From positions 1-42,556 of IMG/VR virus record IMGVR_UViG_3300001847_000341: a stretch of 42,556 nt of DNA; one strand, given 5' to 3'. A program made the translations under genes and the position numbers. Of this stretch, positions 1,333-34,886 are shown in pieces. Under the pieces are notes generated by a model, which saw only the letters and a program-made list of their open reading frames with translations, ran no database searches and was not told where the DNA came from. The first letter of the stretch is position 1, and each line of letters begins with the position of its first letter. The DNA is from a virus.

Positions 1333-1370
1333 TGGGAGAATAACCACTCAGTTCCCCAACTCCTGATAGG

Positions 1371-1376
1371 TAGACT
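1371..1376 (+). promoter_or_regulatory. Late-type -10 box
   Basis: TAGACT preceded by AGG, 22 nt before ATG 1398. Confidence 0.45.
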
Positions 1377-1397
1377 ACATCGTTAACTGCCGAGCAA

Positions 1398-1826
1398 ATG
1401 GCTACACTTTCTCTGTATAACCATACGGCAAAAATCCTTGTAGACGGCAGTAGTACTGACGTCTACAGGGTCATACTTCTTAGCGCTGGTACGTTTTCGG
1501 CAACTCACACGACGCTTGCAGCAGCCAGTGCTGCCTATACCCAGGTGGCCAACGGTAACGGTTACACCACTGGTGGCCTTGCTTTGGCGAATGTTACAGT
1601 TAGCACTGTTACCACAAACGACGCAAAATTCGATGCAGATGATGCGATTTGGAACGCAACCGGATCTGGTATAACCGCAGTTGCCGCTATCTTATACAAT
1701 GATACATTGGCCAACGACCCGCCAATTGCCTACATTAACTTTGGTGGCTCTGAAACGGCAAATGGACTAACAGATTTCAAGATTGTTTGGGCTCCTTCTG
1801 GGATCTTCACCTGGACTGTTGCGTAG
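1398..1826 (+). CDS. Hypothetical small virion-type protein
   Basis: This encodes 142 residues rich in Ala, Thr, Asn and Gly, with no charged clusters, no signal peptide and almost no Lys or Arg. It begins MATLSLYNHTAK and ends in an aromatic strand-like stretch, TWTVA. The composition is that of a beta-rich structural protein such as a tail or decoration component. It sits between the LamG protein and a fibre-adaptor gene. It has its own -10-like box (TAGACT) 22 nt before ATG, and no strong ribosome site is visible. The family was not recognised, so the virion assignment rests on composition and position. Confidence 0.65.
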   Translation: MATLSLYNHTAKILVDGSSTDVYRVILLSAGTFSATHTTLAAASAAYTQVANGNGYTTGGLALANVTVSTVTTNDAKFDADDAIWNATGSGITAVAAILYNDTLANDPPIAYINFGGSETANGLTDFKIVWAPSGIFTWTVA

Positions 1827-1833
1827 CAATCGG

Positions 1834-1839
1834 TAATCT
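1834..1839 (+). promoter_or_regulatory. Late-type -10 box
   Basis: TAATCT preceded by CGG, 21 nt before ATG 1860. Confidence 0.4.
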
Positions 1840-1859
1840 AGCACAGTTCTCCGACTACC

Positions 1860-2252
1860 ATGGCCGCTCCTCAGAACAGAGTTCCAGTAAGAGTGGCTCG
1901 CGGGACCAAGGGCAACCTCGATGCGGCGCTGGCGCTGGGATCCCTGCAGGAAGGTGAGCTGGTTTATGCTAAAGACCAGAACACCCTCTATGTCATGGAG
2001 GATGGGGTTCTCGTATCAGCTGCCGTAACTATTGGCAATATTGCTGATGTTATCCTAGCGTCACCGGCTAATAACCAATACCTTGGCTACAATTCAACCA
2101 CGTCAAAGTGGGAGAATAAAACTGCTACTAACATGCGAACACTGCTTGGTATTGGCAGTTACACAAACGATGCTGCAGCCGGAACCGGTGGAGTCACTTC
2201 CGGTTCTTTGTACTATAATACTACGTCTAGCTCGTATGTTCTGAAGACTTGA
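1860..2252 (+). CDS. Short tail-fibre/adaptor-like protein
   Basis: The N-terminal 50 residues have the layout of the fibre N-terminal domain seen in phage tropism-determinant and fibre proteins: a basic strand (VPVRVARGT), a Leu/Ala helix, then GSLQEGELVYAKDQNTLYV. The second half contains QYLGYNSTTSKWEN, a strand pair common in fibre shafts and also present in the protein at 7525. The same N-terminal layout recurs in the proteins at 8836 and 10281, so these are inferred paralogues. A -10-like TAATCT lies 21 nt before ATG. At 130 residues it is short for a fibre and may be a baseplate or fibre-joint protein. Confidence 0.65.
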   Translation: MAAPQNRVPVRVARGTKGNLDAALALGSLQEGELVYAKDQNTLYVMEDGVLVSAAVTIGNIADVILASPANNQYLGYNSTTSKWENKTATNMRTLLGIGSYTNDAAAGTGGVTSGSLYYNTTSSSYVLKT

Positions 2253-2262
2253 TTGGGTTTGG

Positions 2263-2268
2263 AATAAT
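2263..2268 (+). promoter_or_regulatory. Late-type extended -10 box
   Basis: AATAAT preceded by TGG, 22 nt before ATG 2290. Confidence 0.45.
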
Positions 2269-2289
2269 AGCCCACGACCAAGGCTGACC

Positions 2290-2694
2290 ATGATCAACTC
2301 AATCGAAGACCTTCGAAGTTCTGGTGTATTGCCTACGGGGCCAGTTTCTGCTTGGCCACAGGAACGCAATATTTCGGGTCCCGAAATGGAAGAAAGGTTT
2401 CATCCGGGTGATGACTATACGAAAAGGCCAATTATCGCTCAAGAATACGCGACAGAGGTAAAGGCAGGCTTCGGCCAAATGGCAACAGGGCTTGCAAGGA
2501 ACGTTGGAATTGCCTTTACGAATGGTCGAGTCGAAGGTGATATTAGAGAGGAACGCTTTGACCTATGCAAGGCATGTCCTGCCTTTATCCCTAAAACGCA
2601 ACGTTGCTCAGAATGCGGATGCTTTATGGCGGCAAAGACCTGGCTGAACGGCAATCCGCAGCAACTCTGTCCTCTCAAGAAGTGGAGTCGCTGA
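2290..2694 (+). CDS. Small zinc-ribbon-like protein
   Basis: This is a 134-residue protein. Residues about 95-131 carry CKACPAF, CSECGCF and a final CPLKKW, that is, five or six cysteines placed as in a treble-clef or zinc-ribbon fold. Similar short C-terminal Cys modules occur in many cyanophage virion-region proteins; this is recalled from the general pattern and was not searched. The N-terminal part is polar and unrecognised. An AATAAT box preceded by TGG ends 22 nt before the ATG. The gene ends one base before the next start, so the two are probably co-translated. Function is unknown. Confidence 0.65.
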   Translation: MINSIEDLRSSGVLPTGPVSAWPQERNISGPEMEERFHPGDDYTKRPIIAQEYATEVKAGFGQMATGLARNVGIAFTNGRVEGDIREERFDLCKACPAFIPKTQRCSECGCFMAAKTWLNGNPQQLCPLKKWSR

Positions 2695-2695
2695 G

Positions 2696-3172
2696 ATGCC
2701 TACAGAAGTAGAAGCTGGGCTATGCAAGAAACAATGTCGATGCCTAAGTGGTCCTAATCGTGGCATTTTGTATGACTGCGATAACCCATGCCCTGGTGGG
2801 GGTACCTGGAATGATAGTATCTGTACTTGTGTCAATGGTAGTGGTGGAACTACGGGTTTTCCGGGTTTCATAACGCTTAAACCATATCTCTACGCTGTGC
2901 TTACAGACGTGGATACATGTACCTTTGGCCCAAACCCAGCTCCCGATGGCGGAGTTTCTTTTATGTCTGTTGGTGGTGGCATGGGCAAGTGCATTTCAGC
3001 ATCAAATAATTATTCCTACATATATTCAATTGGGTCCATCTATAATGTAATCGGCCTTTACGGCTCTTTCCCTTTTGTAAAAAGTGACACAAATGCCTCA
3101 GCAGGATCGAGTAGTGCTTGCAACAATCCTGGCAACTTAGTCGTTTTAGATCTCAGCGTGCCACTTTTTTAG
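2696..3172 (+). CDS. Hypothetical Cys/Gly-rich protein
   Basis: This 158-residue protein has an N-terminal knot-like stretch with eight cysteines in about 45 residues (CKKQCRC, CDNPC, CTC). Gly- and Ser-rich sequence with aromatic residues follows, including repeated Tyr-Ser patterns near residues 103-115. It has no signal peptide and no membrane helix. It starts one base after the upstream stop. Codons are A/T-ending more often than in the DNA-metabolism genes. It could be a disulfide- or metal-stabilised tip or decoration protein. Nothing in the sequence proves this, and the family was not recognised. Confidence 0.6.
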   Translation: MPTEVEAGLCKKQCRCLSGPNRGILYDCDNPCPGGGTWNDSICTCVNGSGGTTGFPGFITLKPYLYAVLTDVDTCTFGPNPAPDGGVSFMSVGGGMGKCISASNNYSYIYSIGSIYNVIGLYGSFPFVKSDTNASAGSSSACNNPGNLVVLDLSVPLF

Positions 3173-3193
3173 GCCCTGATTTTTTCCAATTGG

Positions 3194-3199
3194 CATACT
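3194..3199 (+). promoter_or_regulatory. Extended -10 box before scaffold
   Basis: CATACT preceded by TGG, 41 nt before ATG 3240. Confidence 0.45.
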
Positions 3200-3239
3200 A
3201 CCTCGCAATCAACAACGGGCGTGATGCTCGTGCAATTCA

Positions 3240-3965
3240 ATGTCTAGCGAACAGCAGTCGACCACCGAGATGGAGTCTTCGGCAGCCAATACTCAATCAT
3301 CCATGGATGATATGATGCCTCGCGCGGATGCCGAGAATCTTCTAAAGGCGCTCAAGGCAGAACGGGAAGCTCGTAAGCAATACGAGCGCGAGGCGAAAGA
3401 GAAGGCTGCTCAGCTTGAGCGTTTTGCTTCGATCAATCCCGACGAGTATAACAAACTTCAAGAGGAGGCGGCAAAGGCAGCCCAGCTTCAGGCTCAGTTT
3501 GGTGTGGCGCAAGAAGCCATCGAGGAGAAATACTCCAAACAGGCTCAAGCGGCTGCTGCAGAGGCTCAGGCGGCCAAGGCGGCCTTGGCTGAGTATCAGA
3601 AGAAGTATGCCCTTGAGAAGGTGTTCTTTGCCGCTGGTGGCCGCACCGATTCGGCCGATGGCGTGTCGTTCTTCGACATGATGGCCCAACAGATCGGCGG
3701 TCGTTTCCGTCAAGAGGCCGATGGCTCGCTGACTGTTGTTGATGCCCAGGGCGATCCTGTCCTTGACAAGGAGAGCGGCAAGCGGATCTCTGCCGAGGAT
3801 TTTGTTGGTTCCTTCAAGGTCCACCCGATCTACGGCACTTTCTTCAAGGGTGTCAAGGGTGCCGGTGCTGGTATTGGCTATGGCGGCACGGACGTCAATG
3901 GCATGCCGACGGAGGACCTGTCAAGCCTCAGTCGTGATGAAATGTTCCAACGAGCATTTGGCTGA
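3240..3965 (+). CDS. Capsid scaffolding protein
   Basis: The 241-residue protein is dominated by a coiled coil (residues about 30-125, rich in Ala, Glu, Lys and Gln, for example AEREARKQYEREAKEKAAQ). A compact Gly/Phe-rich C-terminal domain follows. It ends in a polar tail with SLSRDEMFQRAFG. A long acidic/basic coiled coil immediately upstream of the major capsid gene is the classic profile of a phage scaffold, which holds capsid subunits during assembly and is then removed. No protease gene is visible beside it. A TGG-CATACT box lies 41 nt upstream of ATG, and two hairpins follow the stop. Confidence 0.8.
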   Translation: MSSEQQSTTEMESSAANTQSSMDDMMPRADAENLLKALKAEREARKQYEREAKEKAAQLERFASINPDEYNKLQEEAAKAAQLQAQFGVAQEAIEEKYSKQAQAAAAEAQAAKAALAEYQKKYALEKVFFAAGGRTDSADGVSFFDMMAQQIGGRFRQEADGSLTVVDAQGDPVLDKESGKRISAEDFVGSFKVHPIYGTFFKGVKGAGAGIGYGGTDVNGMPTEDLSSLSRDEMFQRAFG

Positions 3966-3966
3966 A

Positions 3967-3991
3967 CTCCTAACCTTCTTCAAGTTAGGAG
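3967..3991 (+). other. Hairpin after scaffold stop
   Basis: Perfect 8-bp inverted repeat CTCCTAAC/GTTAGGAG with a 9-base loop. It is the first of two hairpins. No T-run follows. Confidence 0.6.
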
Positions 3992-4005
3992 CAAATTAGA
4001 AGTTG

Positions 4006-4026
4006 GGGCCCCACGAGGGCCCTTTT
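4006..4026 (+). terminator. Terminator between scaffold and capsid genes
   Basis: GGGCCC (4006-4011) and GGGCCC (4017-4022) pair, followed by four T. With the hairpin just before, read-through may be partial so that capsid and scaffold levels differ. Confidence 0.7.
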
Positions 4027-4104
4027 CTATAAATAGGTACCCTGTATTTAGATCACCCAGAAGGGATGCTCCGAGATGGAGTGGACTGGAAGGGTGTCAT
4101 GCTG

Positions 4105-4125
4105 GCACTTGTGCGATACTTGTGC
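4105..4125 (+). repeat. Operator-like direct repeat in the capsid leader
   Basis: ACTTGTGC occurs at 4107-4114 and 4118-4125, spaced 11 bp, in a region also carrying short inversions (GCAC...GTGC). It lies about 50 bases before the capsid ATG. Confidence 0.4.
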
Positions 4126-4172
4126 AAGCAATTCACCCAATCTTTGTTCCATCCATTCCGTAGGAAATTATC

Positions 4173-5060
4173 ATGGCCCTTACCCTGCTTGAAGCCCAGA
4201 AGCACGCTCGCACGCCCCAGGAACTGGCGGTTGTGACCGAACTGGCTGCTGGCCCCCTGCTGCAGAACCTGCCCTTCCGCAATATCGAAGGCAACGGTCT
4301 GTTCTGGAAGCGTGAAGAAGCTCTGCCTGATGTGGGTTTCCGTAACTACAACGGCGCCCTGGCTGAGAGCTATGGTGAAGTCAGTCAGCAATCCGAGAGT
4401 CTGAAACTCTTCGGTGGCGACATTAAGGTTGACCGCGCCATCGTTGATCTCGAGGGTCCTCAGGCCAAGGCTTACCAGGTGCAGGCTCGCGTTCGCGCCA
4501 TGCGTCTTGCCTGGGAAGCTCTGTTCATCAAGGGCGATTCCAACAAGTCTCCTTCCGAGTTTGACGGTCTGGCTGCTCGTTGCAAGAGCGGTTCTAGCCA
4601 GTATCTCTCCAACGGCGCTGGCGCTCTGAGTCTGGCCAAACTGGATGAAGTGATTGACTATGTCGACGCTCAGGGTGGCAACAAGTTCCTGGTGATGTCG
4701 AAGTCCGCTCGCCGGGCCCTTAGCCGTCAGGCTCGTACGAACGTCCAGGTCGACATCACGCGCAACGAATTCGGTTACCAGCAGCTGGTATATGCCGGCA
4801 TCCCTGTGCTGGAACTGGATCGCGACCACAAAAACGTGGCAATCATGGATGCCACCCCGACCTCGCAGGACATCTACTGCGTGGCCTTCGGCAACGACCT
4901 GCTGACCGGCATTCAGAACGGTGGCGTGTCTGTGCGCGAGCTGGGCGAAAGCCACACTCAACCCCAGATGATCACCCGTGTTGAGTGGTACTGTGGTCTG
5001 GCACTGATCAACGGTCGCTCTGTGGCCCGTCTGGCTGGCTTTGACGCAACCCAGGGCTGA
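4173..5060 (+). CDS. Major capsid protein
   Basis: This 295-residue protein begins MALTLLEAQKHARTPQE. The region WKREEALPDVGFRNYNGALAE and the following SESLKLFGGDIKVDRAIVD match the N-terminal arm and loop pattern of a common siphovirus major capsid family, presumed HK97-fold. It forms the icosahedral shell. Position supports the call: it follows a scaffold gene, is isolated by terminators on both sides, and strongly favours C- or T-ending codons, as highly expressed genes do. AGGAAA at 4162-4167 precedes the ATG. The 145-base leader contains an operator-like repeat described separately. The long ORF on the opposite strand (4053-4961) is a shadow. Confidence 0.88.
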   Translation: MALTLLEAQKHARTPQELAVVTELAAGPLLQNLPFRNIEGNGLFWKREEALPDVGFRNYNGALAESYGEVSQQSESLKLFGGDIKVDRAIVDLEGPQAKAYQVQARVRAMRLAWEALFIKGDSNKSPSEFDGLAARCKSGSSQYLSNGAGALSLAKLDEVIDYVDAQGGNKFLVMSKSARRALSRQARTNVQVDITRNEFGYQQLVYAGIPVLELDRDHKNVAIMDATPTSQDIYCVAFGNDLLTGIQNGGVSVRELGESHTQPQMITRVEWYCGLALINGRSVARLAGFDATQG

Positions 5061-5079
5061 TCACCTTAGCGGTTAAGCC

Positions 5080-5104
5080 GGGCCTCCTTCGGGGGCCCTT
5101 TTTT
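5080..5104 (+). terminator. Terminator after major capsid gene
   Basis: GGGCCTCC paired with GGGGGCCC (one G-U) around TTC, then six T. Confidence 0.8.
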
Positions 5105-5114
5105 ATTGCTTAGG

Positions 5115-5120
5115 CATACT
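5115..5120 (+). promoter_or_regulatory. -10 box after capsid terminator
   Basis: CATACT preceded by AGG, 69 nt before ATG 5189. Confidence 0.4.
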
Positions 5121-5188
5121 AGATCGTACAGCAGTTGCCCTCCTCACTCTGCGCGGGGACTGCAAACAAAAACCCAAGGAGTCCATCA

Positions 5189-5551
5189 ATGGCCGCTCTG
5201 TCTACTGGTATGTTCCCTCGTGAAGGTTTTGACCTTGACGATAGCTGCAAACTGACCGCTACCCAGGTCGCTGCTGCCACCACCCTCAAGTACGCTAAAA
5301 CCATCCGTATCATTGCCCTTGGCGTGAGCGGTATTGACAACGCTGGCACCAACAAGCTGACCGTCACCATCGGCGGCCAGTCTGTGGTGTTCCAGGCTCA
5401 GGATGCTGATCCGAACGGCGTGTACATTGCCCATCTGCGTGGCGCTCTGTGTGACATCAACAACACCGTTGGTTACACCCTCGGCGGTACCGCTGCGGTA
5501 GCTGGCACCGGCGGCGTGTTCTATCAACTGGTTGATTACCCTGCTCGCTGA
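5189..5551 (+). CDS. Probable head decoration/stabilisation protein
   Basis: The encoded protein has 120 residues. The ATG at 5189 was chosen over an upstream TTG because AAGGAG lies 7 bases before it. The protein is Ala/Gly/Thr-rich and likely all-beta (for example TNKLTVTIGGQSVVF and GGVFYQLVDYPAR), with no membrane or signal segment. It directly follows the capsid gene as its own unit, with a CATACT box upstream and a GC-rich terminator downstream. Codon choice resembles the capsid gene, implying high expression. A decoration or head-stabilising role is inferred from location and composition. A major tail protein would be an alternative, though it would be small. Confidence 0.65.
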   Translation: MAALSTGMFPREGFDLDDSCKLTATQVAAATTLKYAKTIRIIALGVSGIDNAGTNKLTVTIGGQSVVFQAQDADPNGVYIAHLRGALCDINNTVGYTLGGTAAVAGTGGVFYQLVDYPAR

Positions 5552-5578
5552 ACCCAATCCTAGCCATAGGAAACATAA

Positions 5579-5601
5579 GGGGTCTTCGAGGCCCCTTTTT
5601 T
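5579..5601 (+). terminator. Terminator abutting a start codon
   Basis: GGGGTC-TTCGA-GGCCCC stem-loop and six T; ATG 5603 begins one base after the T-run and C. Confidence 0.75.
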
Positions 5602-5602
5602 C

Positions 5603-5932
5603 ATGGCTCACCTTGATAAATTGCCAACCTATTTTGTCAAGGCCGACGAACGTCGTGCTGCTTACTATACGATTGATGCTACCGAGCTGTTGGCAGATGG
5701 TTGGGCAGAAGAGGGCGAGAAGGCTGTCGCGGCTGTCATCCATAAACCACTGCCCGAGATTCCAGTGGAAGCCGGTGTCGACGCTTTTGATGTGGAACCT
5801 GAAGAGGACATCGATGAGCCGTTGGAGGCGATGACCAAGAACGAACTTCTTGAATACGCCATGAAGCATGGAATTGATCTGAAGAACAATCTGCCAAAAG
5901 CGGAAATCCTTAAGGCCTGCAAGGAAATCTGA
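5603..5932 (+). CDS. Small acidic protein with C-terminal HeH/Rho-N-like helix pair
   Basis: This is 109 residues long. After an acidic linker (residues about 60-78, many Asp and Glu), residues about 77-109 (MTKNELLEYAMKHGIDLK, then LPKAEILKACKEI) fit the short helix-extended loop-helix module of SAP/HeH/Rho-N type. That module is common at the ends of phage head-tail and gp-connector proteins. The ATG begins two bases after the T-run of the terminator at 5579-5601. Translation therefore depends either on read-through or on a transcript starting near the hairpin. Function is not established. Confidence 0.65.
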   Translation: MAHLDKLPTYFVKADERRAAYYTIDATELLADGWAEEGEKAVAAVIHKPLPEIPVEAGVDAFDVEPEEDIDEPLEAMTKNELLEYAMKHGIDLKNNLPKAEILKACKEI

Positions 5933-5955
5933 TTTTCTTTGTGCAAATGTAATGG

Positions 5956-5961
5956 TATCCT
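5956..5961 (+). promoter_or_regulatory. Late-type extended -10 box
   Basis: TATCCT preceded by TGG, 22 nt before GTG 5983. It overlaps the start of the terminator at 5959. Confidence 0.45.
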
Positions 5962-5979
5962 AGCTTGCTAGGTTTTTTT
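5959..5979 (+). terminator. Terminator overlapping a promoter
   Basis: CCTAGC (5959-5964), TT, GCTAGG (5967-5972), then seven T. A transcript begun from the overlapping -10 box would start inside the hairpin and so escape it. Confidence 0.65.
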
Positions 5980-5982
5980 GCT

Positions 5983-6156
5983 GTGAATATCTCATACACT
6001 GTAGGTCCCCGGTTTATCGATGGAATCAATATCGATTTTAGCGTTGAGGCATCCGTTCCTTGCGAACTAGAGGTTGAGATTTCGGAGCCGGTGACGGGAC
6101 TACTTGGTATTGGTTATGAACCTGGGCAGAAAAACCGTGACGGAGGAGAGTTGTGA
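5983..6156 (+). CDS. Hypothetical small protein
   Basis: This encodes 57 residues from GTG. The TTG eighteen bases upstream lies inside a terminator hairpin and is less likely. The sequence is strand-rich and acidic (ELEVEISEPVTG) and unrecognised. A TGG-TATCCT box ends 22 nt before the GTG, matching the spacing seen ahead of other virion-region genes. The stop overlaps the next start as GTGA. Confidence 0.5.
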   Translation: MNISYTVGPRFIDGINIDFSVEASVPCELEVEISEPVTGLLGIGYEPGQKNRDGGEL

Positions 6157-6314
6157 GTCTTAAGCGCAGGATGAGACTTCGCCAGGACTGTGCATTGATC
6201 ATGATAGCCGTGTCTTCAGTTATATCTGCTGCGACTGTATTGGCTTACAATCATTTACAGTACTTGCGCACGTTTAGCGGAAGCTACGAAAACCGTTGCG
6301 GTAGCCTACGGTGA
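6153..6314 (+). CDS. Small single-span membrane protein
   Basis: This gene is below usual ORF cut-offs: 53 residues from GTG, with an excellent GGAGGAG six bases upstream. A basic N-terminus (LKRRMRLRQ) precedes one hydrophobic helix (residues about 13-32), then a polar tail. The topology is that of a small inner-membrane protein, possibly a holin or spanin component, since the next gene is also membrane-anchored. It overlaps the previous stop by GTGA. The specific role is inferred only. Confidence 0.55.
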   Translation: MSLKRRMRLRQDCALIMIAVSSVISAATVLAYNHLQYLRTFSGSYENRCGSLR

Positions 6315-6327
6315 GCGGAATAGCTTC

Positions 6328-6633
6328 ATGTTGCCTGAATACATTCTTGCTGCTATGGTAACTGCAGTATTAGGCTGGGGTGGTTTTACGTGGCGCAGGG
6401 CTGAACAGGCGCTCGAGGCTGCTTACAAGGCCGCTGATGCTACCGACAGACTTGAACTGAAACTCGCTGAGCGGTATCTAACCAAGGATGAATTTGAGAG
6501 CCAGATGGACCGACTGTTCAAAACACTTAGTCGGCTTGAGGAAAAGTTAGACTACAATCTATATCACCAGACTAACGAAATCAAGGGACTTCGTGGTAGA
6601 CTAGGAATGTACGAAGAAGGCAGGAACTCCTGA
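6328..6633 (+). CDS. Membrane-anchored coiled-coil protein
   Basis: In this 101-residue protein, residues 4-22 (EYILAAMVTAVLGWGGFTW) form a membrane helix. A long amphipathic coiled coil with alternating Ala/Leu and charged residues follows (about 25-80). The arrangement resembles phage lysis accessory or XhlA-like proteins and recurs in small cyanophage proteins. Its stop (TGATGG) overlaps the next start. It could assist lysis or anchor a complex at the membrane. The sequence does not decide between these. Confidence 0.65.
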   Translation: MLPEYILAAMVTAVLGWGGFTWRRAEQALEAAYKAADATDRLELKLAERYLTKDEFESQMDRLFKTLSRLEEKLDYNLYHQTNEIKGLRGRLGMYEEGRNS

Positions 6634-6953
6634 TGGCCGCTAAGAAGCGCTCCACTGCTGATTTCTACAAAAGCAATCCAGAGGCGTACGCTAAAAAACT
6701 AGCTTACGATAAGAAGCGTAACGCTAAGCCAGCCCGCAAGAAGTACCGCGCTGATCTTGCTCGTGAGCGTCGGGCTCGTGGCATTATGGGCAAGGGTGGC
6801 CCCGATGTAAGTCACCAGTCCGGTGGCGGCTTCAAGTTGGAGAATCCGAAGACTAACCGGGCTCGCAATGGCGCAGGGAATAATGCTCGGCTGGCCAACG
6901 GCAAAGGTACACGCAAGTCTTCGACTAAGTACACTCCTCGTAAGAAGGATTGA
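6633..6953 (+). CDS. Small highly basic protein
   Basis: This 106-residue protein has about one third Lys plus Arg, spread over the whole length (MAAKKRSTADFYKSNPEAYA, later KGTRKSSTKYTPRKK), with many Asn and Gly. No hydrophobic core or membrane segment is visible, so it is probably disordered and nucleic-acid binding. Small basic proteins of this kind are packaged with DNA or sit in the virion in several cyanophages; that is family-level knowledge, not shown here. Its start overlaps the upstream stop, and the next gene begins one base after its own stop. Confidence 0.65.
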   Translation: MAAKKRSTADFYKSNPEAYAKKLAYDKKRNAKPARKKYRADLARERRARGIMGKGGPDVSHQSGGGFKLENPKTNRARNGAGNNARLANGKGTRKSSTKYTPRKKD

Positions 6954-6954
6954 A

Positions 6955-7140
6955 ATGGCAGTCCCTCGTCGTCAACTGAGTTTTCGTGATGTAGCACTAC
7001 GCCTACTAGGCGGTCTCATGTGCTGCCATCTAGCTTTCATCGGCTTCAACACAAGGCAACCCGAAGCATTCCAAAAAGCGGCTGAGACATACGTGGCCAT
7101 TCTGCTGGCGCTTATGGTGCCTGCAGTAAGAGAATCTTAA
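6955..7140 (+). CDS. Small two-span membrane protein, holin candidate
   Basis: This encodes 61 residues. The ATG at 6955 was chosen because the open frame upstream shadows the basic-protein gene. A basic head (VPRRQLSFRD) is followed by two hydrophobic segments, about residues 16-32 and 47-60, joined by a polar loop, as in short class II holins. The virion-lysis location fits, but the endolysin lies 4.5 kb away, so holin is only the leading suggestion. Confidence 0.55.
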   Translation: MAVPRRQLSFRDVALRLLGGLMCCHLAFIGFNTRQPEAFQKAAETYVAILLALMVPAVRES

Positions 7141-13042: not shown

Positions 13043-13492
13043 TCAGTCCTCGTCGTCGTCCTCAAATTCCACCCCATAGGAGAGGTCGGTCCCAGATTCA
13101 ACGGCTTCCTTGAGGTACTGATGAATGTGAGGTTCGTCCCAATCGCACTCATTGAGAAGTGCGTTTGCAATTTCTGTCAAGGCCTCGCTATCCTCTTCGG
13201 TCCACTCTCCTTTCTTAACAGCATCTTCCTTTAGCTTAGTGGCCGCAGAAAGAAGTTCAAGCTCGCGTGCCTGGCGCTCCAGGGCGACCTGAGCCTCCTC
13301 CTCCGCGACAGAAGAATCAAAACGATCAGCATCGACGAGACGGAGCAGATAGACGGCAAGTGCGGCAAGGAGTGATCTGGTCAGCACTAAAAACCCCTCT
13401 AGCAGGCCTGGCAGTATTTCAGCAAGCCAGGCAAGCAATGCGAGTGTTAGGTAGCTGACGTTGGTGAGGGTGTCAAAGGCTAACTTTTTCAT
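13043..13492 (-). CDS. Membrane-anchored acidic protein
   Basis: The 149 residues start at ATG 13492. The open frame continues upstream to 13759, but that part shadows the helicase gene. Residues about 8-50 are hydrophobic with two likely membrane helices (VSYLTLALLAWLAEILPGLL, then FLVLTRSLLAALAVYLL). A charged helical region follows, ending in a very acidic tail (EFEDDDED). It overlaps the helicase end by 20 bases and is last in the operon. It may tether replication proteins or the genome to the membrane, though nothing in the sequence proves it. Confidence 0.65.
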   Translation of the reverse strand: MKKLAFDTLTNVSYLTLALLAWLAEILPGLLEGFLVLTRSLLAALAVYLLRLVDADRFDSSVAEEEAQVALERQARELELLSAATKLKEDAVKKGEWTEEDSEALTEIANALLNECDWDEPHIHQYLKEAVESGTDLSYGVEFEDDDED

Positions 13493-15194
13493 TGATCTGG
13501 TGGTAGGTGTCGTCTCCCTCGCGGCCGGGGAGAATCGAAGAGCTTGGGTGGTTGATCTTGATGACGGATTTCTCGATAAAGCCCCGGAGCCCTTCAACCG
13601 AGTTTGACCGCTGATTCCAGTAGGCCTGACGCCCACGGACCTTCGCGTGCCACAGTTCCAGGTTACCAGTCGACATGCGTTGGCCCTGGTCGTCGTCACT
13701 CTTCTCCTTGCGGAGAATCCAGACGGCATGAGAGATGTGCGCAATAGCGTCGGTACCACGGATCTGGTCTAGGCCTGGGGGCTGCTTGGCGGACAGGGAA
13801 TCCATGCCAACACGGTTCATCTGAGCCAGGGCGATCAGGTCCACATCCAATTCCTTTGCGATGGTCATCAGGCGATAGGCCCTCTCTTCTAGCATTGTCG
13901 CTTCGTTCGAGGCGGCGCCTTTGTGACGAGCCAGGCAGTGGAAGTGGTCAAGGACTAGCAGGCGTAGCTCAGGGTGCCGGGCCTTCATGGAGCGCATCGA
14001 GCTGACCACTGCATCGATGTCAGCGCCCCAGGGAGCCTCTACGAGCAACTTGCCTCCACAATCCTGGAGGACACCAGCGATTTGACTGAGCCGTGTAGTG
14101 ATCTTTCCTTTCTTTTCCTCGGGAGGAGCCATAATAGAGCCTGAATAGATCACCTCATCCCTGTTGGTTGCAAGTTGGGCCGAGATGGAGGACCAGAGCC
14201 TTGCATAGATACTGTTCTCGTCGAGTTCTGCCGAGATGAACCCAACAGTCAAGCCGCCAAGCGCACCAGCTGCTGCGACCTGTACCCCTAATTGCGTTTT
14301 CCCGTCACCCGTCCGACCGCAGAGCGTGAACACTCGTCCGCCGCCAACACCCGCAGGACGAATGCCGCCCTCCATGTCAAGATCGAGCGCCATAATCCCA
14401 GTCGAGACGGGACGGACACCTGCGTCTGTGTTGAGGATGCGCTCGACGAAACCAGTGCGGCTATCGGTGCTGAATAGGTCGTTGACGATGTCCTGGAAGT
14501 TGCCCTGTTGGCCTACGGATCCACGGAGTAGACCGAGGCATTCCATGGAACGCTGCTGCAGGAACTCAATGCTCTTCTCAAGCTTAGAGTCTGCTCGGGT
14601 GACTTGATCGGCCACTTGCAGTGTCTCCTTGTATAGAGTCTTGACGCGCTGCTTGCGAAGCAGATCTAGGGCGGTAGACCATTCCGACTCCTCAGCGCCG
14701 TAGGTCTTCATGGTCTCGCGGCAACCCAGGGTAGCAGCCGTCTTGCTGACCTCGGACAGCGGGGCGACATTGAACTTCTGAGAGGCGACTAGGTCGGTGT
14801 GCATCGAGGTGATTGCCGCTACCGAGATAGTCTCGAAGTCAGCGTCACCCAGAAAGATTCGATCGACGTGGCCGCCGATTGCCTGGAAGACGGCAGTCGA
14901 CCAGAAGTACTCTGGAAAGCGTTGGCCATGGCCGACTCCGATCGCAGCGCGGAGTTCGGACCAGAGGTGCCGGGCTACTCCGCTCGGGGAGGATAGCACG
15001 CGACAGAGGACGATGGCCTCCTGGTCGGTGGTGTCATCCAGCTTGGCCGTCGTTGTCGGCTGAAGCTTCTCAATCAAGCGAGCCGTTCCCATGACCGTCT
15101 CGACTGCCTCCTTGTTGCAGCCAACGATCTTCCCCTCCTCCGCTTGGAGCAGGCCAAGGTCGACCGCTCGTTGGATATAGTGGGGGAAGTTCAT
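13473..15194 (-). CDS. Replicative DNA helicase, DnaB/RecA-fold
   Basis: This 573-residue ATPase unwinds DNA ahead of the fork. Residues 1-260 form an N-terminal helical region. The RecA-like core has Walker A GRTGDGKT (293-300), FISAELDE (319-326), and Walker B LLVLDHFH (412-419) with Asp416. The stretch LDVDLIALAQMNR and then DQIRGTDAIAHISHAVWILR corresponds to the DnaB H3/H4 motifs. It ends RSNSVEGLRGFIEKSVIKI. It is longer than E. coli DnaB (471), the excess being mainly N-terminal. The ATG overlaps the upstream initiator stop by ATGA, so the pair is coupled. Primase (26606) is encoded far away on the other strand. Confidence 0.9.
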   Translation of the reverse strand: MNFPHYIQRAVDLGLLQAEEGKIVGCNKEAVETVMGTARLIEKLQPTTTAKLDDTTDQEAIVLCRVLSSPSGVARHLWSELRAAIGVGHGQRFPEYFWSTAVFQAIGGHVDRIFLGDADFETISVAAITSMHTDLVASQKFNVAPLSEVSKTAATLGCRETMKTYGAEESEWSTALDLLRKQRVKTLYKETLQVADQVTRADSKLEKSIEFLQQRSMECLGLLRGSVGQQGNFQDIVNDLFSTDSRTGFVERILNTDAGVRPVSTGIMALDLDMEGGIRPAGVGGGRVFTLCGRTGDGKTQLGVQVAAAGALGGLTVGFISAELDENSIYARLWSSISAQLATNRDEVIYSGSIMAPPEEKKGKITTRLSQIAGVLQDCGGKLLVEAPWGADIDAVVSSMRSMKARHPELRLLVLDHFHCLARHKGAASNEATMLEERAYRLMTIAKELDVDLIALAQMNRVGMDSLSAKQPPGLDQIRGTDAIAHISHAVWILRKEKSDDDQGQRMSTGNLELWHAKVRGRQAYWNQRSNSVEGLRGFIEKSVIKINHPSSSILPGREGDDTYHQINEKVSL

Positions 15195-16306
15195 GCGTTC
15201 TCCTTGGTGTACCAGATGTAGGCGTCAGCAAGTGGGCACTTGCGCCAATCGACTGGATGGATGGCCATCCGGGCGTCCGCAAACTCGCGCGGCGTCAGCT
15301 TGAGGCCAATATAGCCGCTAAAAGCCTTCCGAAGAAACTCATCGTAACTTTCTGTATTGTTGAGTTTCGAGCGAAGCGTCTGGACGGCTATGGCTACGAC
15401 GGCGTCGTTAGCAATCTCGCTCCAGCCCTCTTTCTTGCGGGCATCCCAGGCTGTGTAAATCTCCTGGTACTCGCGACGAGCCTCTTCGGCTGCAAGTTCC
15501 TGGGCCTCATCGATCGCGTCCTGCTCGCGGTTGTACTCCTCCCAACGGGCCTGAGCCTCTTCGGTGGCCTGAGCTGCGCGAGTCTCGCTATACTCGACCC
15601 GACGGCCAATCTGGTACAGCTTCTCGACGTTTTCAAACTTCTTGTCGTCTAGGTTGGCCCCGAAGCCAAATACGTTAGTAGGCTTCAGCTCGCGCTGCGA
15701 CCACCATTCATCCTTGGCCGCTCCACGGCACACGGCACCGATGAAGGCGTCGTAGTCGTCCCGATCGATGCCGAGGCGCTTGCTTTGTGTCTCGATAGCG
15801 ATGAACAGCGGCAGATTGATCCCGCCGTCGAGCCGTAGGTAGCGCTCTGGCTTATGGGAGTTCCAGGCAGCCTTGATCTTCTCCCAGCGATCCTTTTGGC
15901 TCAGGCCAGTCGACTCACGCTTGGGCTGGGCCTCGACATCGGCAGAGATCAGCTTCTCTGGCTCGGTAACTTGCTCGATGACTTGCTCGGCGGATGGCTC
16001 GTCGATCTCCTTTGTACCATCGCCGTACGGAAGCACCTGGATAACGCCATCACGGAGCTGGCCGTCGACGAGGCCAAGCATGCGGAGTGTACTGATCGCA
16101 GTCCTCAGTGGACGCAACCCGATTCCAAGGATGCGTGCCAGGTCCTCGGCGTCGTGGAACTGGGCCTTGGAGCGAAGCGAGGTCAGCAGCAGGTACGCCC
16201 TGGTCGCCAGCGGCTGGGACCAAAGTCGAGAGTCGTAGAGCAGCGCGTTTGGGATCTTAGTAAAGCTCTCGGTCGTTTCGAACGAGCGCCTGACGACCAG
16301 TGGCAT
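15191..16306 (-). CDS. Winged-helix replication initiator
   Basis: This is 371 residues. Residues about 14-85 (FTKIPNALLYDSRLW, then ATRAYLLLTSLRS, LARILGIGLRPLRTAISTL and MLGLVDGQ) form the winged helix typical of phage and plasmid replication initiators and of DnaD-like proteins. A charged helical middle (about 240-300, rich in Glu, Ala and Arg) and a helical C-terminal domain follow. It is first in a minus-strand operon with the helicase, which it would load. Just upstream lies the array of nine TTGAC units, the expected binding site if it acts as an iteron-binding initiator. That binding is inferred, not shown. Confidence 0.78.
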   Translation of the reverse strand: MPLVVRRSFETTESFTKIPNALLYDSRLWSQPLATRAYLLLTSLRSKAQFHDAEDLARILGIGLRPLRTAISTLRMLGLVDGQLRDGVIQVLPYGDGTKEIDEPSAEQVIEQVTEPEKLISADVEAQPKRESTGLSQKDRWEKIKAAWNSHKPERYLRLDGGINLPLFIAIETQSKRLGIDRDDYDAFIGAVCRGAAKDEWWSQRELKPTNVFGFGANLDDKKFENVEKLYQIGRRVEYSETRAAQATEEAQARWEEYNREQDAIDEAQELAAEEARREYQEIYTAWDARKKEGWSEIANDAVVAIAVQTLRSKLNNTESYDEFLRKAFSGYIGLKLTPREFADARMAIHPVDWRKCPLADAYIWYTKENA

Positions 16307-16334: not shown

Positions 16335-16343
16335 AGTCTACCA
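16335..16343 (-). promoter_or_regulatory. Extended -10 promoter for the initiator-helicase operon
   Basis: Reading leftward, TGG-TAGACT lies 29 bases before the initiator ATG. It abuts the TTGAC array, so a protein bound there could repress it. Confidence 0.5.
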
Positions 16344-16346
16344 TGC

Positions 16347-16418
16347 TTTGACGTGTTGACCGTTTGACGTGTTGACCGTTTGACGGTTTGACCGTTTGAC
16401 GGTTTGACCGTTTGACGG
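16347..16418 (+). repeat. Iteron-like array of nine TTGAC units at exact 8-bp spacing
   Basis: TTGAC begins at 16348, 16356, 16364, 16372, 16380, 16388, 16396, 16404 and 16412, followed alternately by G and C. The larger period is 16 bp: two copies of TTTGACGTGTTGACCG, then two of TTTGACGGTTTGACCG, then a half copy. Inverted GTCAA/CGTCA copies follow at 16418-16453, then TATATATAT at 16460-16468. This is the only simple direct repeat array seen in the window. It lies between the divergent initiator operon and the rightward genes, as an origin or operator would. Confidence 0.75.
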
Positions 16419-16507
16419 TCAAGGCGTCACGCCAATGACGTGTGAGGCGTCAAAACACCTATATATATCAAGACTGTTTCTAAGACTGGTACTAGAAGGG
16501 GGATCAG

Positions 16508-16849
16508 ATGCAAATCAGCCAACGGGAGGCCGAGGCCCGTCGCCATCTCTACGAGAACGGAGGGGAGGCGATCGGGGAGTTCCTCTGCCGCTATCCCGAG
16601 GAAGAGCCAACGATCTGGCGCATGGTTGCCGGAGCAGGCCTGTGGACCCGCAAGGACCTGGCGGCCTTCAAGTCGCTCTGGAGGAGGGACAACCCGCGTG
16701 CCCACCAGGTGATCCGGCAGATGCGCTACGAGCGCAAGCTGAGGGCCCGGCGCAAGGCCAGTAGACTGAGGGAATCCCGGGAAGCCTGCAAGCCGCAGGC
16801 CATGCCCACCGAACGAAGGCCCCGGAAAGACCTGGGGGAAAGATCATGA
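16508..16849 (+). CDS. Hypothetical basic protein
   Basis: This protein has 113 residues. The N-terminal half is helical and mixed-charge (SQREAEARRHLYENGGEAIG), with WTRKDLAAFKSLWRRDNP in the middle. The last 45 residues are strongly basic and probably disordered, suggesting nucleic-acid binding. GGGG lies about 8 bases before ATG. As first rightward gene beyond the TTGAC array, it should be an early gene. It ends by ATGA overlap with a membrane protein gene. The family was not recognised. Confidence 0.65.
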   Translation: MQISQREAEARRHLYENGGEAIGEFLCRYPEEEPTIWRMVAGAGLWTRKDLAAFKSLWRRDNPRAHQVIRQMRYERKLRARRKASRLRESREACKPQAMPTERRPRKDLGERS

Positions 16850-17104: not shown

Positions 17105-17821
17105 ATGGCCCCCCTGGACCCTGGTTTCCAGATCCTTCCCAATCTCGCTGGTGTGGCGACCAAGGACCTGGTCGAGAACATCGGCTCCGGCTCGTTTAGG
17201 GCCAGCTACATCAACTGGTCGAGAACCATGAACCTGCTGCGCCAGAACGCACCGGGTTGGATGGTTGACTACGAACCCTCCGTCGATGGCCAGCTGCTTC
17301 ACCGCGCCCCTGTCGGCGGTTACCTGATGATCCGGTTCCGTCACGTCGATGGGACCACCACGCCGGCCCTGCCTCAAGCCGTGATGGATCACAAGAACAA
17401 CGCGATCCCTTACGACAAGATCAGCGCCCGCGACATCTCCGATACCCAGCGTCGCGGGATGTGCATGGCCGCTGCCATGACATTCGGTCTGGCCTACGAG
17501 CTGTGGGCCAAGATTGCCCTTGAGTCTGGCTATGGCGACTCCGATGTCGAGGCCCCTGTTCGCCAGGAGTCTAAGGCCGCCCCAAAGGCTGCTCCTGCGG
17601 CCAGCCAGGCTGCACCGGCGACTTCTGGTGGCACTTCTGAGCCGACGGAGGCTGACTTTCGCGAGGCAGCCCTGGCCAAGGGCGTCGATACCCGCGCCAT
17701 CGATGCCATCGTCGCCAAACTCGGCGGCAAGTACGCGGCAGGCATCACCGCCCTCGCCAAGAAGACCGCAGCTGAACTCAATGCCCAGTACGCTCCCGCT
17801 GACGACGGTGAGCAGTGGTGA
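17105..17821 (+). CDS. Single-strand annealing recombinase, DUF1071/Sak3 (Rad52-like)
   Basis: This 238-residue protein pairs complementary single strands. Residues about 30-145 follow the DUF1071 pattern: SYINWSRTMNLLRQNAP, GGYLMIRFRH, QAVMDHKNNAI, and DISDTQRRGMCMAAAMTFGL with the long helix that closes the fold. A linker of Ala, Pro and Lys (about 152-178) leads to a helical C-terminal piece with the acidic end DDGEQW, as in proteins that touch SSB. GAGGA precedes the ATG by six bases. With the exonuclease at 21760, SSB at 18811 and RusA at 21387 it makes a full recombination set. Confidence 0.82.
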   Translation: MAPLDPGFQILPNLAGVATKDLVENIGSGSFRASYINWSRTMNLLRQNAPGWMVDYEPSVDGQLLHRAPVGGYLMIRFRHVDGTTTPALPQAVMDHKNNAIPYDKISARDISDTQRRGMCMAAAMTFGLAYELWAKIALESGYGDSDVEAPVRQESKAAPKAAPAASQAAPATSGGTSEPTEADFREAALAKGVDTRAIDAIVAKLGGKYAAGITALAKKTAAELNAQYAPADDGEQW

Positions 17822-17909: not shown

Positions 17910-17920
17910 CTTGGTACACT
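17892..17920 (+). promoter_or_regulatory. Strong sigma-70 promoter for sigma factor gene
   Basis: TTGACA at 17892-17897, a spacer of exactly 17, and TACACT at 17915-17920 preceded by TGG. It is the best -35/-10 pair in the window and is usable by host polymerase early in infection. Confidence 0.75.
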
Positions 17921-17952
17921 CGGAGAGTATTCAAGCCTCAAGGAGGTACCGC

Positions 17953-18744
17953 ATGACCAACCCCATCACCATCTGGCTCGATAGCGCTGCTAGCTACCGT
18001 GTCCTGACCCACGAGGAGACCCTTGAGCTTGGCCGGGCCATCCAGGCTGCAACACCTGGCACTGCCAAGCATACCCGCTTGGTCAACAAACTGTGCAACC
18101 ACAATCTGCGCCTGGTTGTCCGCTACACCAAGCAATACATGAGCGGTGGCAAGCGTAACCTGCATTGGGGCAGTGAGGAGACTTTGGACCTCCTGCAAGA
18201 GGGGGCCATCGGCCTGCGCCGTGCCGCTGTCAAGTTCGACCCCACCAAGGGCTATACCTTTGCTACCTACAGCTGTGCCTGGGTTCGGCAGGCCCTGGGT
18301 AAGTACCACGTCGATAAACTTAGCCTAATCCGCGTGCCTGAGTCGTCGGCCCGGGAGATTTTCTACTACCAGAACCACGGCCGCCCCCGCAACGAACGTA
18401 GCGCCTCCTGGGTGGCTGAGGCATCGATTGCAGCTCAAGCCGCCTACGGTCTCGTGTCGTATGACTGCAAATTGACGATTGACTCTCAGGAGTCGACCAT
18501 ATCAGTCCTTTCAGACGAGAATCGGGTCGGTCATGTTACATGCAAGCCAGATTATTCACTGCGAGAAGCTCTAATGGTCAAACTTGGCATTGAGCAGAAG
18601 ATCCGCGACGTGATTATCTCATACTGCAAACGCGGCAACCTTGACACTGCTATGATGAAAAACAAACTCGTGGTCTCGAAGGCTAACCGGGCCAAGGTCC
18701 GCGAGGCCATTGCCCTGGTGAAGGGGCACTGTGCTGCCCAGTAA
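17953..18744 (+). CDS. Phage sigma-70 family factor, group 1/2-like
   Basis: The 263 residues start at ATG 17953, with AGGAGG six bases upstream. Region 1.2-like VLTHEETLELGRAIQAA is followed by region 2: CNHNLRLVVRYTKQYM (about 48-63), LDLLQEGAIGLRRA (78-91), and FDPTKGYTFATYSCAWVRQALGK (95-117), the core-binding and -10 recognition helices. Region 3-like LSLIRVPESSAREI follows. The last 60 residues are diverged; only VSKANRAKVREAIALVKGH faintly recalls region 4, so -35 contact may be lost. It should redirect host RNA polymerase to phage promoters. A strong host-type promoter drives it. A second, unrelated sigma lies at 25855. Confidence 0.88.
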   Translation: MTNPITIWLDSAASYRVLTHEETLELGRAIQAATPGTAKHTRLVNKLCNHNLRLVVRYTKQYMSGGKRNLHWGSEETLDLLQEGAIGLRRAAVKFDPTKGYTFATYSCAWVRQALGKYHVDKLSLIRVPESSAREIFYYQNHGRPRNERSASWVAEASIAAQAAYGLVSYDCKLTIDSQESTISVLSDENRVGHVTCKPDYSLREALMVKLGIEQKIRDVIISYCKRGNLDTAMMKNKLVVSKANRAKVREAIALVKGHCAAQ

Positions 18745-18810: not shown

Positions 18811-19167
18811 ATGGCTTCAATCTCCCTCGCTGGAACCGTTACCGGCAAGCAGGGTGAGCCCGCAGTAACCGTCAAGACCTTTGACAGCGGCGACTCTGTG
18901 GCTACATTCTCGGTCGCCGACCGCGAATACGTGTATTCGCGCAAAGGTGAAGAGGCCAAAGGCCAGTTTTATCGCGTCGAGATCCGTGGGAAGGCGGCCC
19001 AGATCGCTGCCGACCGCCTGCAACGTGGAGACAAGGTGGCCATCCATGGTCAGCTCGTGCAACGCGACTACAATGGCAAGACCTACCTCGATGTCAAGGG
19101 AGCCCGGATTACCTACCTGGAGGCCCGTCGAGACCAATTCGATTTGTACGAGGAAGCTCCTTTCTGA
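18811..19167 (+). CDS. ssb: Single-stranded DNA-binding protein
   Basis: This protein has 118 residues and an OB-fold layout: SISLAGTVTG, VATFSVADREYV, QFYRVEIRGKAAQIAADRLQRGDKVAIHGQLVQRDYNGKTYLDVK. That matches bacterial SSB strand order, including the basic and aromatic DNA-contact strands. It ends FDLYEEAPF, a short acidic tail with a terminal Phe like the SSB protein-interaction tip. It protects single strands during replication and recombination and probably recruits partners by the tail. AGGAAA precedes ATG by eight bases. A terminator follows directly. Confidence 0.88.
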   Translation: MASISLAGTVTGKQGEPAVTVKTFDSGDSVATFSVADREYVYSRKGEEAKGQFYRVEIRGKAAQIAADRLQRGDKVAIHGQLVQRDYNGKTYLDVKGARITYLEARRDQFDLYEEAPF

Positions 19168-25854: not shown

Positions 25855-26589
25855 ATGGCACGCAAGCCGCAGAAATTCCAGCTCAGCAAAGAGCAACAGC
25901 AGCTTGCGGCTAGCAATCTGAACCTAGCTCGTCGCGAGGCCTGGCGCATTCAGCGGTCGACAGGTATCGATTACCAGACCCTGGAGTCTGTAGCCTTCGA
26001 GGGGCTCTGCAAGGCAGCCTTCCGATACGACGCGGACAAGCCTCACCCGACCACTGGCAAGAGCATGAAGTTCTCCAGTCTTGCCGTGCCGACAATCCGT
26101 GGCGAGTTGCTACATTGGGTTCGCGATAGAACCTATGCTATGCGCCTGAGCCACAAGATGCGCGAGCGCTGGTTGAAGGGCCGTAAGATGCTGTACCGTG
26201 GCGCCACCGACATCCAGGTAGCCCGGGAGCTGGGTATCGATCTGGAGGACTGGCAGGAGGTCCGCAAGGTCTGCTCGGGCCCACCGCTTGAGCTCAAGGA
26301 CCAAGCCACCCCTACGGAGCCCCTGGAGCCCTCAGAGGTGGACTTCGCCACCATGTATATCGAGCAGGCCAGTCGCTCTATTGAGCAACTCGACCAAGAG
26401 CACCAGAGCAGTCTCTCGCAGATCGAGGTATACCTCAACGGCACCGGCACCCGTGTCCCACGAGCAGCTGTCGATGCTCTACTTGCGGCTGCTGGGTGTG
26501 CGGCTACCGACTGGAGCCAGATGGATGTTAATTTACTTGACGGTTGGGAGGACTTGGGTGACGATCGATTCCAGGGCAGCCTGTTCTAG
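25855..26589 (+). CDS. Second sigma-70 family factor, SigF/group 3-like
   Basis: This is a 244-residue protein. Residues about 21-92 match region 2 of alternative sigma factors: NLNLARREAWRIQRSTGI, LESVAFEGLCKAAFRYD, and MKFSSLAVPTIRGELLHWVRDR, the SigF/SigB style KFSxxAxPxIRGE. Region 3-like residues 100-139 (HKMRERWLKGRK, then ATDIQVARELGIDLEDWQEV) follow. The last 90 residues are acidic and lack a clear region 4. It is distinct from the factor at 17953, so this phage encodes two. A timed switch between promoter sets is the natural inference. It precedes primase. Confidence 0.85.
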   Translation: MARKPQKFQLSKEQQQLAASNLNLARREAWRIQRSTGIDYQTLESVAFEGLCKAAFRYDADKPHPTTGKSMKFSSLAVPTIRGELLHWVRDRTYAMRLSHKMRERWLKGRKMLYRGATDIQVARELGIDLEDWQEVRKVCSGPPLELKDQATPTEPLEPSEVDFATMYIEQASRSIEQLDQEHQSSLSQIEVYLNGTGTRVPRAAVDALLAAAGCAATDWSQMDVNLLDGWEDLGDDRFQGSLF

Positions 26590-34800: not shown

Positions 34801-34886
34801 AGTGGACTATTGAGAGTGTTGCAGGATGCACCAACGCGGCCTGCATCGCCAAGGCTGAAGCCGACGAACGCGAAGGCAAGGCTTGA
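31881..34886 (+). CDS. Class II (B12-dependent) ribonucleoside-triphosphate reductase with intein
   Basis: The 1001-residue precursor becomes 765 after removal of a 236-residue intein (400-635), close to monomeric class II enzymes. It reduces ribonucleotides using adenosylcobalamin. Cysteine landmarks are present: Cys92 (YYNCTSTH), the radical Cys636 in NP/CGE across the splice junction, Cys646 (DFHCNLAE), and the C-terminal pair Cys983/Cys988 (CTNAAC) that receives electrons from a thioredoxin or glutaredoxin. GSGTGAVLES and QPAGTKSLLTG are the substrate-phosphate and loop motifs. The glutaredoxin at 29450 is a likely partner. It has a dedicated promoter and terminators on both sides. Confidence 0.93.
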   Translation: MTEFRPSAPSAEAVFLRTYSRRKADGSRENFEEAMLRTIGDIARIGKLDRDEYDLILEQALAQHSFPSGRAFWVAGTEWGKKPENFSGYYNCTSTHISDIEAFGLLVDLAMQGSGTGAVLESDVVAVLPPVLNKIEVVGVSGIGKKPGRANTTFYWADAELFIQVGDSRQGWVDAYMKLIEVATLPGSGLVKVHVILDQVRPAGERLKGFGGTANPIKLGDMFKKVAALLSKAQGRKLTTVEACLLIDEAAACIVAGNIRRSAGMRQFSKTDQEAATAKLGLYSQDEEGNWRVDPAKEALRMANHTRCYHTKPSYKEVEEAVRMQFQSGEGAIQYVPEAIARANADVLTWAGRDRFLVAYETFGRKAARDQLEKEARELGIKLSKRELRHRMDRYGLNPCLTGDTPILTVHQGVKTFEELVESGEDVLVWCVNKETNEAAVRMMRSPRVTGYNQPVLEVEFDSGLKVRATHNHNFFTLQRNKVQAKDLKVGQSVSAFAIHQHRDGHLRITRNNKQADSVRQQFCHRVIADYYGISGEVIHHVDGNPVNNLPQNLEATTHVEHNREHYGNRCRNGFYHGSPGPAAAEHIANHKVVAIRDAGTATVYNGTVDEHHNYVVVDPSSVGKSYVSGILSANCGEIIGRDFHCNLAEVHLNTLDPNDFQGLYDAFYAAGLQVASLLQHKFVHERYQYSREIDPIVGVSFTGLFDFYVHAFGAGWLKWNMEGRPESDRYADKYTGAEQSYLMRFRLAAHDAVDDYCTKHGIRLPNRITTVQPAGTKSLLTGASSGWHPPKAQRFIRRITLGVKDPLVPALIEYGYKVIPAQSARDEHGNLLDDITDPRVQEVLVEIPTSVSWADLPGCDEYDLSKLPVTAQWGIYMNVQNFYTDHNTSATIELREEEIPVLSKLIYDNIVNDGGYISAALLARFDANETFPRLPFEPISREEYDRQILPRKVVEMTDDRSLLDILNKYDSSEWTIESVAGCTNAACIAKAEADEREGKA
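33078..33785 (+). mobile_element. HNH-containing intein inside the reductase
   Basis: The intein (236 residues) begins with Cys400 in CLTGDTPIL (block A). It has TxxH in RATHNHNFF (block B) and ends VDEHHNYVV then GILSAN before +1 Cys636 (blocks F/G). The penultimate residue is Ala instead of the usual His. A homing-type HNH nuclease lies inside: HHVDGNPVNNLPQNLEATTH followed by VEHNREH. Insertion is exactly at the catalytic Cys, a site known for reductase inteins. It could cut intein-free reductase alleles in co-infecting phages. Confidence 0.9.

Follow-up and report, generated by a model that had tools for sequence, protein, structure and literature searches.

The question raised by this locus is what purpose is served by nine short direct repeats, set exactly 8 bp apart beside the operon for a replication initiator and a DnaB-like helicase; a preliminary description had likened them to either an iteron origin or an autorepression operator. 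The window (the whole stretch of DNA analysed, 42,556 bases) is a genome fragment of a Synechococcus siphophage, kin of S-CBS2 and the S-CRES phages, with S-CBS2 and S-CRES1–3 as its nearest named relatives. The genes on either side of the repeats are:

13473–15194, minus strand: DnaB-like replicative helicase, in the same operon as the initiator
15191–16306, minus strand: replication initiator, 371 aa, with a predicted N-terminal winged helix (aa ~1–96), a linker and a helical C-terminal part
16508–16849, plus strand: R1, the first rightward gene, 113 aa, a small helical protein kept at the same place in relatives
17105–17821, plus strand: Sak-type single-strand annealing protein (SSAP), a possible partner in recombination-dependent replication
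18811–19167, plus strand: single-strand DNA-binding protein (SSB)

Reading rightwards from the gap, the order is R1, a short ORF, the Sak-type SSAP, a sigma factor and the SSB. Two phage RNA polymerase sigma factors are encoded by the window (17911–18744 and 25855–26589), as is likewise the case for S-CBS2. Elsewhere, the ribonucleotide reductase ORF (1001 aa; 31881–34886) carries an in-frame intein-type insertion (residues 413–617; Pfam Intein_splicing), which contains an HNH endonuclease domain. The record for S-CBS2 (L163) has an AT-rich look over positions 1–7000, unlike its remainder, and ends inside a gene resembling one at ~40 kb of the window; a possible assembly join.

Within the gap itself, we distinguish the following elements:

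16335–16343, minus strand: extended −10 element TGGTAGACT of the leftward initiator operon, adjoining the tail
16347–16418, plus strand: ‘tail’ of nine direct half-sites TTGAC[G/C], with an 8-bp pitch and a 16-bp super-repeat
16413–16429, no strand: palindromic iteron 1, TGACG-N7-CGTCA, 17 bp
16436–16452, no strand: palindromic iteron 2, TGACG-N7-CGTCA, 17 bp, placed 23 bp from iteron 1 (family pitch 20–24 bp)
16456–16468, no strand: AT tract ending TATATATAT, a putative duplex-unwinding element on the basis of sequence and computed stability
16470–16488, plus strand: AAGACTG twice, 12 bp apart, just beyond the AT tract

The nine TTGAC units lie at 16348, 16356, 16364, 16372, 16380, 16388, 16396, 16404 and 16412, precisely the 8-bp register first described, and the base that follows each of them alternates, again as described, in the order G, C, G, C, G, C, G, C, G. 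Because of this alternation 16 bp is the better repeat unit; in agreement with the super-repeat claimed earlier, TRF reports a period of 16 with 4.6 copies and 96% matches, making the tail the top-scoring tandem array of the whole window. The best 56-bp stretch matches itself at 45 positions when shifted by 8 and at 54 when shifted by 16; in 60 first-order Markov windows of the same length as the window, the maxima for the same test were 31 and 30 respectively, nothing coming close to the observed values. The motif TTGACSGT matches the window 11 times against 2.0 expected, with eight of the 11 inside the tail.

At 10.5 bp per turn, each 8-bp step falls ~86 degrees short of a full turn, four units covering approximately three helical turns and facing every side of the helix. 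The suggestion that such a register could entail an unusual mode of binding holds in part: it is unusual for this family, but not unprecedented, because contiguous 7–8-bp registers exist in the metboxes of MetJ and the parS heptads of pSM19035. We know, however, of no described winged-helix initiator with contiguous 7–8-bp sites.

The ‘inverted copies’ reported to follow the tail exist, and are more regular than was claimed, taking the form of two 17-bp palindromes (TGACG-N7-CGTCA) that are the only exact ones in the window; the ninth TTGAC unit is itself the left half of the first. The AT tract is also where it was said to be, with TATATATAT at 16460–16468, seven bases past iteron 2, and of the 42,517 40-mers in the window, only 29 have a lower computed stability than that beginning at 16459. 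No DnaA box is present in the initiator/R1 gap of the window, and the GC skew of the window itself is uninformative.

Searches with the initiator alone, or with R1 alone, returned no relatives; helicase and SSAP queries did, and together with phage records gave 30 loci, of which 29 are non-redundant, the window included. The placement originally noted, between a divergent initiator–helicase operon and rightward genes, is the same throughout: in 29 of 29 the order is helicase (−), initiator (−), array and AT tract, R1 (+), SSAP (+), sigma factor (+), with the helicase off the contig in one. A search for the same array next to homologous initiators had been proposed as a check, and whilst arrays do occupy the same position in the 29 loci, their letters vary by lineage and their pitch is usually ~22 bp. 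Clear internal direct or inverted repeats are found in 24 of the 29 arrays, the other five being without clear repeats by the measure used. Pooling the arrays gives a peak at a direct spacing of 22 bp, where summed 5-mer matches reach 259 (5 in shuffles), and further peaks for palindromes 15 and 17 bp long (44 of 17 bp, against 4.5 in shuffles), which we take as the family norm; ordinary members therefore have dimer-type sites of ~17 bp, about two helical turns apart. Examples are TGCCCA-N5-TGGGCA in S-CBS2, TACCCA-N5-TGGGTA in S-CRES3, TGGACA-N3-TGTCCA in S-CRES1 and CGACAAATGGTGTCG in L017/L019; a scan of genome contigs yielded one contig, which bears a copy of an array of the L015 type.

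A counterpart of the AT tract, typically YCTATATATA, occurs in all 29 loci, its presence being partly selected for by the TATA-like pattern used to locate it, and in 24 of the 29 no other 40-mer of the locus is less stable, a ranking that was not so selected. Just past it, some 5-mer is repeated in 23 of 29 loci where 11.7 would be expected, a modest enrichment. TTTTCCACA, a cyanobacterial DnaA-box sequence, lies between the initiator gene and the iterons only in L020, L022 (3760–3813, minus strand) and L140. On the other flank, the extended −10 pattern TGnTAnnnT is found at the −10 position of the initiator operon in 20 of the 29 loci against 2.5 expected; in the window the corresponding −35 position, 17 bp from the extended −10, would fall within the tail.

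Which protein, then, reads the array? The initiator is the obvious candidate; its model (mean pLDDT 84) comprises a winged helix (residues 3–91, with pLDDT mostly about 90 or more across the N-domain), a linker and a helical C-terminal part. Among the matches listed by VIA-align, where absence of a family does not exclude it, the N-domain most resembles the Geobacillus DnaB primosome protein (Z 9.2) and RepA_N-type plasmid initiators (Z 7.5–8.0, one of these a Rep–DNA complex), the next listed match having a Z of 6.0. As Z-scores under 8 are common by the tool's own note, we consider this resemblance supportive, not decisive; Foldseek E-values for the initiator model were not significant. Of the PHROG families, the window initiator itself matches only the DnaD-like one (phrog_186, E 1e-4), with relatives matching the PHROGs ‘DnaD-like helicase loader’, ‘replication initiation protein’ and ‘replication initiation O-like’ (O-like family 678 in 8 of 26), as well as Pfam HTH_36. 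Against lambda O, the initiator profile gives a weak match confined to the N-domain (E 0.017).

A further line of evidence comes from loci that are otherwise conserved. Between S-CBS2 and L007 the helicases are 87% identical, the C-terminal parts of the initiators 72%, R1 80% and the SSAPs 88%, yet the initiator N-domains are only 11% identical and the arrays are unrelated. The window and L007, by comparison, have helicases that are 79% identical and N-domains that are 42% identical, and their arrays are of a common type, with an 8/16-bp pitch and two end palindromes 22–23 bp apart. On sequence comparison, then, the array switches with the predicted N-terminal winged-helix domain of the initiator and not with the neighbouring genes; since the two are exchanged together at otherwise conserved loci, the array is most simply taken to be read by the N-domain. 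Over all pairs, a partial Mantel test of array against N-domain agrees with this, if weakly (r 0.16, p 0.007); as classifiers of array similarity (AUC), other proteins perform at much the same level as the N-domain. As all of these proteins have a common ancestry, neither statistic singles out the N-domain, and the argument rests on the swap cases. Those same cases make it extremely improbable that the array is read by some other protein, such as R1: although R1 is kept directly beside the array, its copies in L032 and L033 are 97% identical, and those in S-CBS2 and L007 80%, despite entirely different arrays, which speaks against it as the reader; moreover, its model is all-helical and a fold search gave no significant match.

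A putative iteron array for initiator binding, next to the gene of a replication initiator, is thus well supported in the window by the comparisons made here. The best reading of its function is that of the iterons and unwinding element of a lambda-O/RepA_N/SPP1-like origin, housed in the intergenic gap next to the initiator gene and not within it. Probably it is also an autoregulatory operator; autorepression is made plausible by the array adjoining the extended −10 of the initiator operon.

In seven of eight testable genomes a second module, composed of the same motif and an AT tract, is found 26–28 kb away in non-coding DNA. The iterons of S-CRES1 recur at 31.5–31.7 kb and those of S-CRES3 at 29.7–29.8 kb, in each case followed by an AT tract and set in a large non-coding stretch; the other examples, 26–28.4 kb from the first module, are in the contigs behind L019, L145, L033, L024 and L026. 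First and second modules have a mean 5-mer similarity of 0.69 within a genome versus 0.09 across genomes, and the best match for each second module amongst the 29 first arrays is its own (its sibling's for L019; narrowly so for L024). Distant arrays thus change their letters together, which implies one reader acting in trans. No second module was found in the sequence examined for L009, or by motif in S-CBS2, whose record ends at a gene that by eye resembles one near 40 kb of the window. A gene resembling that at 41.5–42.2 kb of the window lies, again by eye, a few hundred bases from the second module of L019; the window's own second module is probably situated at about 43–45 kb, ~27 kb rightward and beyond the window end, and no contig was found to bridge the right end of the window. 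In several genomes a GAGGGGCCTTGTAGGGGCTT-like element occurs ~130–290 bases downstream of the second module (from about 6870 in L180; in L181, on the minus strand, some 150 bases beyond the AT tract; similarly in L178 and L179), for which a role as a packaging or primosome site would be a guess.

The existence of a second module bears on whether the array is an operator and nothing else, repressing the initiator operon and perhaps a rightward early promoter, with replication starting only at the distant module. Its location between divergent genes, adjoining the extended −10, would suit such a role, and in two complete relatives, S-CRES1 and S-CRES3, detrended GC skew reaches its minimum at or near the second module and not at the initiator-side array (the skew of S-CBS2 switches near the initiator-side locus, with a sign opposite to that usual for an origin). 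We nevertheless consider this unlikely: relatives have a full module of iterons and AT tract on the initiator side, most loci contain no DNA less stable than the AT tract, DnaA boxes are present in the initiator-side gap of three relatives, and the second copy looks alike even though no initiator gene adjoins it, which argues against a purely local operator. The iteron-origin interpretation offered at the outset is partly supported: conserved position, co-switching, second arrays, AT tract and predicted fold speak for it, but either array may be the one that fires, the skew minima of two relatives lying at the distant array.

The two modules per genome of the relatives also invite comparison with the fork block proposed for SPP1 oriR, in which case one of the two arrays, tightly bound by initiator, would be a fork barrier or titration site that stalls forks and so brings about a change to concatemer production by recombination; a long tail of 8-bp units would form a dense roadblock. 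The gene set of the window (SSAP, SSB, exonuclease, helicase and primase) matches, and RusA-type resolvases are annotated in relatives. The same analogy, however, makes the initiator-side copy the firing origin and the distant copy the barrier, and there is no sign of stalling in the sequence; we judge this reading very unlikely.

What of the tail? Among the loci compared, an 8/16-bp pitch is found only in the window and L007/L008; a search for further members of this clade found none, so that half-site tails of 8-bp pitch count as a rare form. The tail of L007 consists of eleven ACACG positions (one of them degenerate) at 8 bp; two palindromes, ACACGCGGCGTGT, spaced by 22 bp, come next, with CCTATATATT after them, and the last tail position supplies the left half of the first palindrome. 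The window and L007 tails thus differ in their letters but have a common architecture. L010 has a 7-bp version, independent of the 8-bp clade, in which TCCCGGA occurs four times and is followed by TCCCAATATTGGGA beside the AT tract. From the shape common to the window and L007, together with the L010 version, the tail is best seen as something added to an ordinary core of palindromes, which it does not replace. A scan with TTGACSGTTTGACSGT returned 81 contigs, nearly all with one match; L085 and L083 have short runs of TTTGACGG without an origin module, that of L085 (4547–4594), an unrelated contig, being six perfect units upstream of an ORF. The near-perfect 16-bp units of the window appear recently duplicated, and the similar-looking array of L085 might be taken to mean that the tail is a functionless product of slippage, a minisatellite, with only the two palindromes of consequence. 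This we regard as quite unlikely: at 42% N-domain identity, L007 keeps its eleven half-site positions, in other letters, in register with the first palindrome, and L010 has arrived at its 7-bp version independently.

Taken as a whole, the explanation that we consider likely combines an initiator-read origin module, a half-site tail, operon shut-off and a second module. N-terminal winged-helix dimers of the initiator would bind the two 17-bp palindromes beside the AT tract, and further initiators would line up on the 8-bp half-sites in register with the first palindrome; the complex would then, as in the family, melt the AT tract and help to load the DnaB-like helicase encoded in the same operon. 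As the −35 position of the promoter would lie beneath the tail, filling of the tail should shut off the initiator operon. A more specific version, which we put forward tentatively, is that the winged-helix initiator of this clade has gained a head-to-tail mode, a sheath seeded at the palindrome and extending along nine to eleven 8-bp half-sites, both silencing its own promoter and driving melting, with half-site and N-domain co-evolving.

The type of module predicted here is already known; its half-site tail is uncommon, and most testable relatives carry a distant partner module. In the literature searched, no paper was found on iteron origins of this group of siphoviruses, which infect Synechococcus-type cyanobacteria. 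The ~29 matched pairs of N-domain and array, with their natural swaps, provide material for asking how the DNA code read by a winged-helix initiator comes to change, and the 8-bp tail raises the question of whether an initiator can polymerise on half-sites.

Amongst characterised systems, contiguous sites of 8 or 7 bp filled side by side are familiar from the metboxes of MetJ, where repression requires at least two adjacent 8-bp sites (PMC3228920), and from parS of pSM19035, whose ParB requires at least four contiguous heptads (PMC9499535). Their readers are ribbon-helix-helix dimers, whereas the candidate reader here has an N-domain modelled as a winged helix, for which reason a reader of the MetJ/omega type was rejected; the present tail, unlike theirs, also joins palindromic iterons. 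The exchange of replication modules between elements recalls the RepA/iteron modules of the Vibrio PLE satellites, where a change of iterons allows escape from an origin-targeting nuclease (PMC8263062); for these cyanophage iterons there is no known attacker, and those of PLE1 are three ~30-bp repeats.

With lambda O and ori-lambda the module has in common palindromic iterons at a 20–24-bp pitch beside an AT-rich tract, and an initiator whose relatives match ‘O-like’ PHROGs; the lambda iterons differ in lying inside gene O and in having no 8-bp half-site tail. In vitro, the two lambda iterons nearest the AT tract suffice (PMC7466680), which fits the two-palindrome core found here.

In SPP1, two distant modules are served by one initiator, gp38 (G38P): theta replication begins at oriL, and forks are proposed to be blocked at oriR, giving rise to concatemers through recombination (PMC6316719, PMC3485210). 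There too the modules consist of direct repeats and AT-rich DNA, one at the initiator gene and one non-coding (PMC6316719, PMC3485210), accompanied by a set of initiator, DnaB-type helicase, SSB, SSAP, exonuclease and resolvase. In SPP1, however, oriL lies inside gene 38 where our array is intergenic, the modules are 12–13 kb apart on a 44-kb genome as opposed to 26–28 kb in relatives of 70+ kb, and, unlike in SPP1, no separate helicase loader has been identified in the present phage. Because the modules are paired, these phages, whose host is a marine primary producer, offer a test of the theta-to-concatemer idea.

Finally, RepA_N plasmid initiators (pSK41 type) are among the best structural matches of the N-domain, the differences being that they belong to plasmids and that the Rep boxes of pSK41 lie inside rep. 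The chimeric Rep of pPR9 has an N-domain of the pfam13730 (HTH_36) type, as do many of the relatives described here, and in that protein the N-domain was replaced together with the origin whilst the C-terminal part was kept (PMC5703833).
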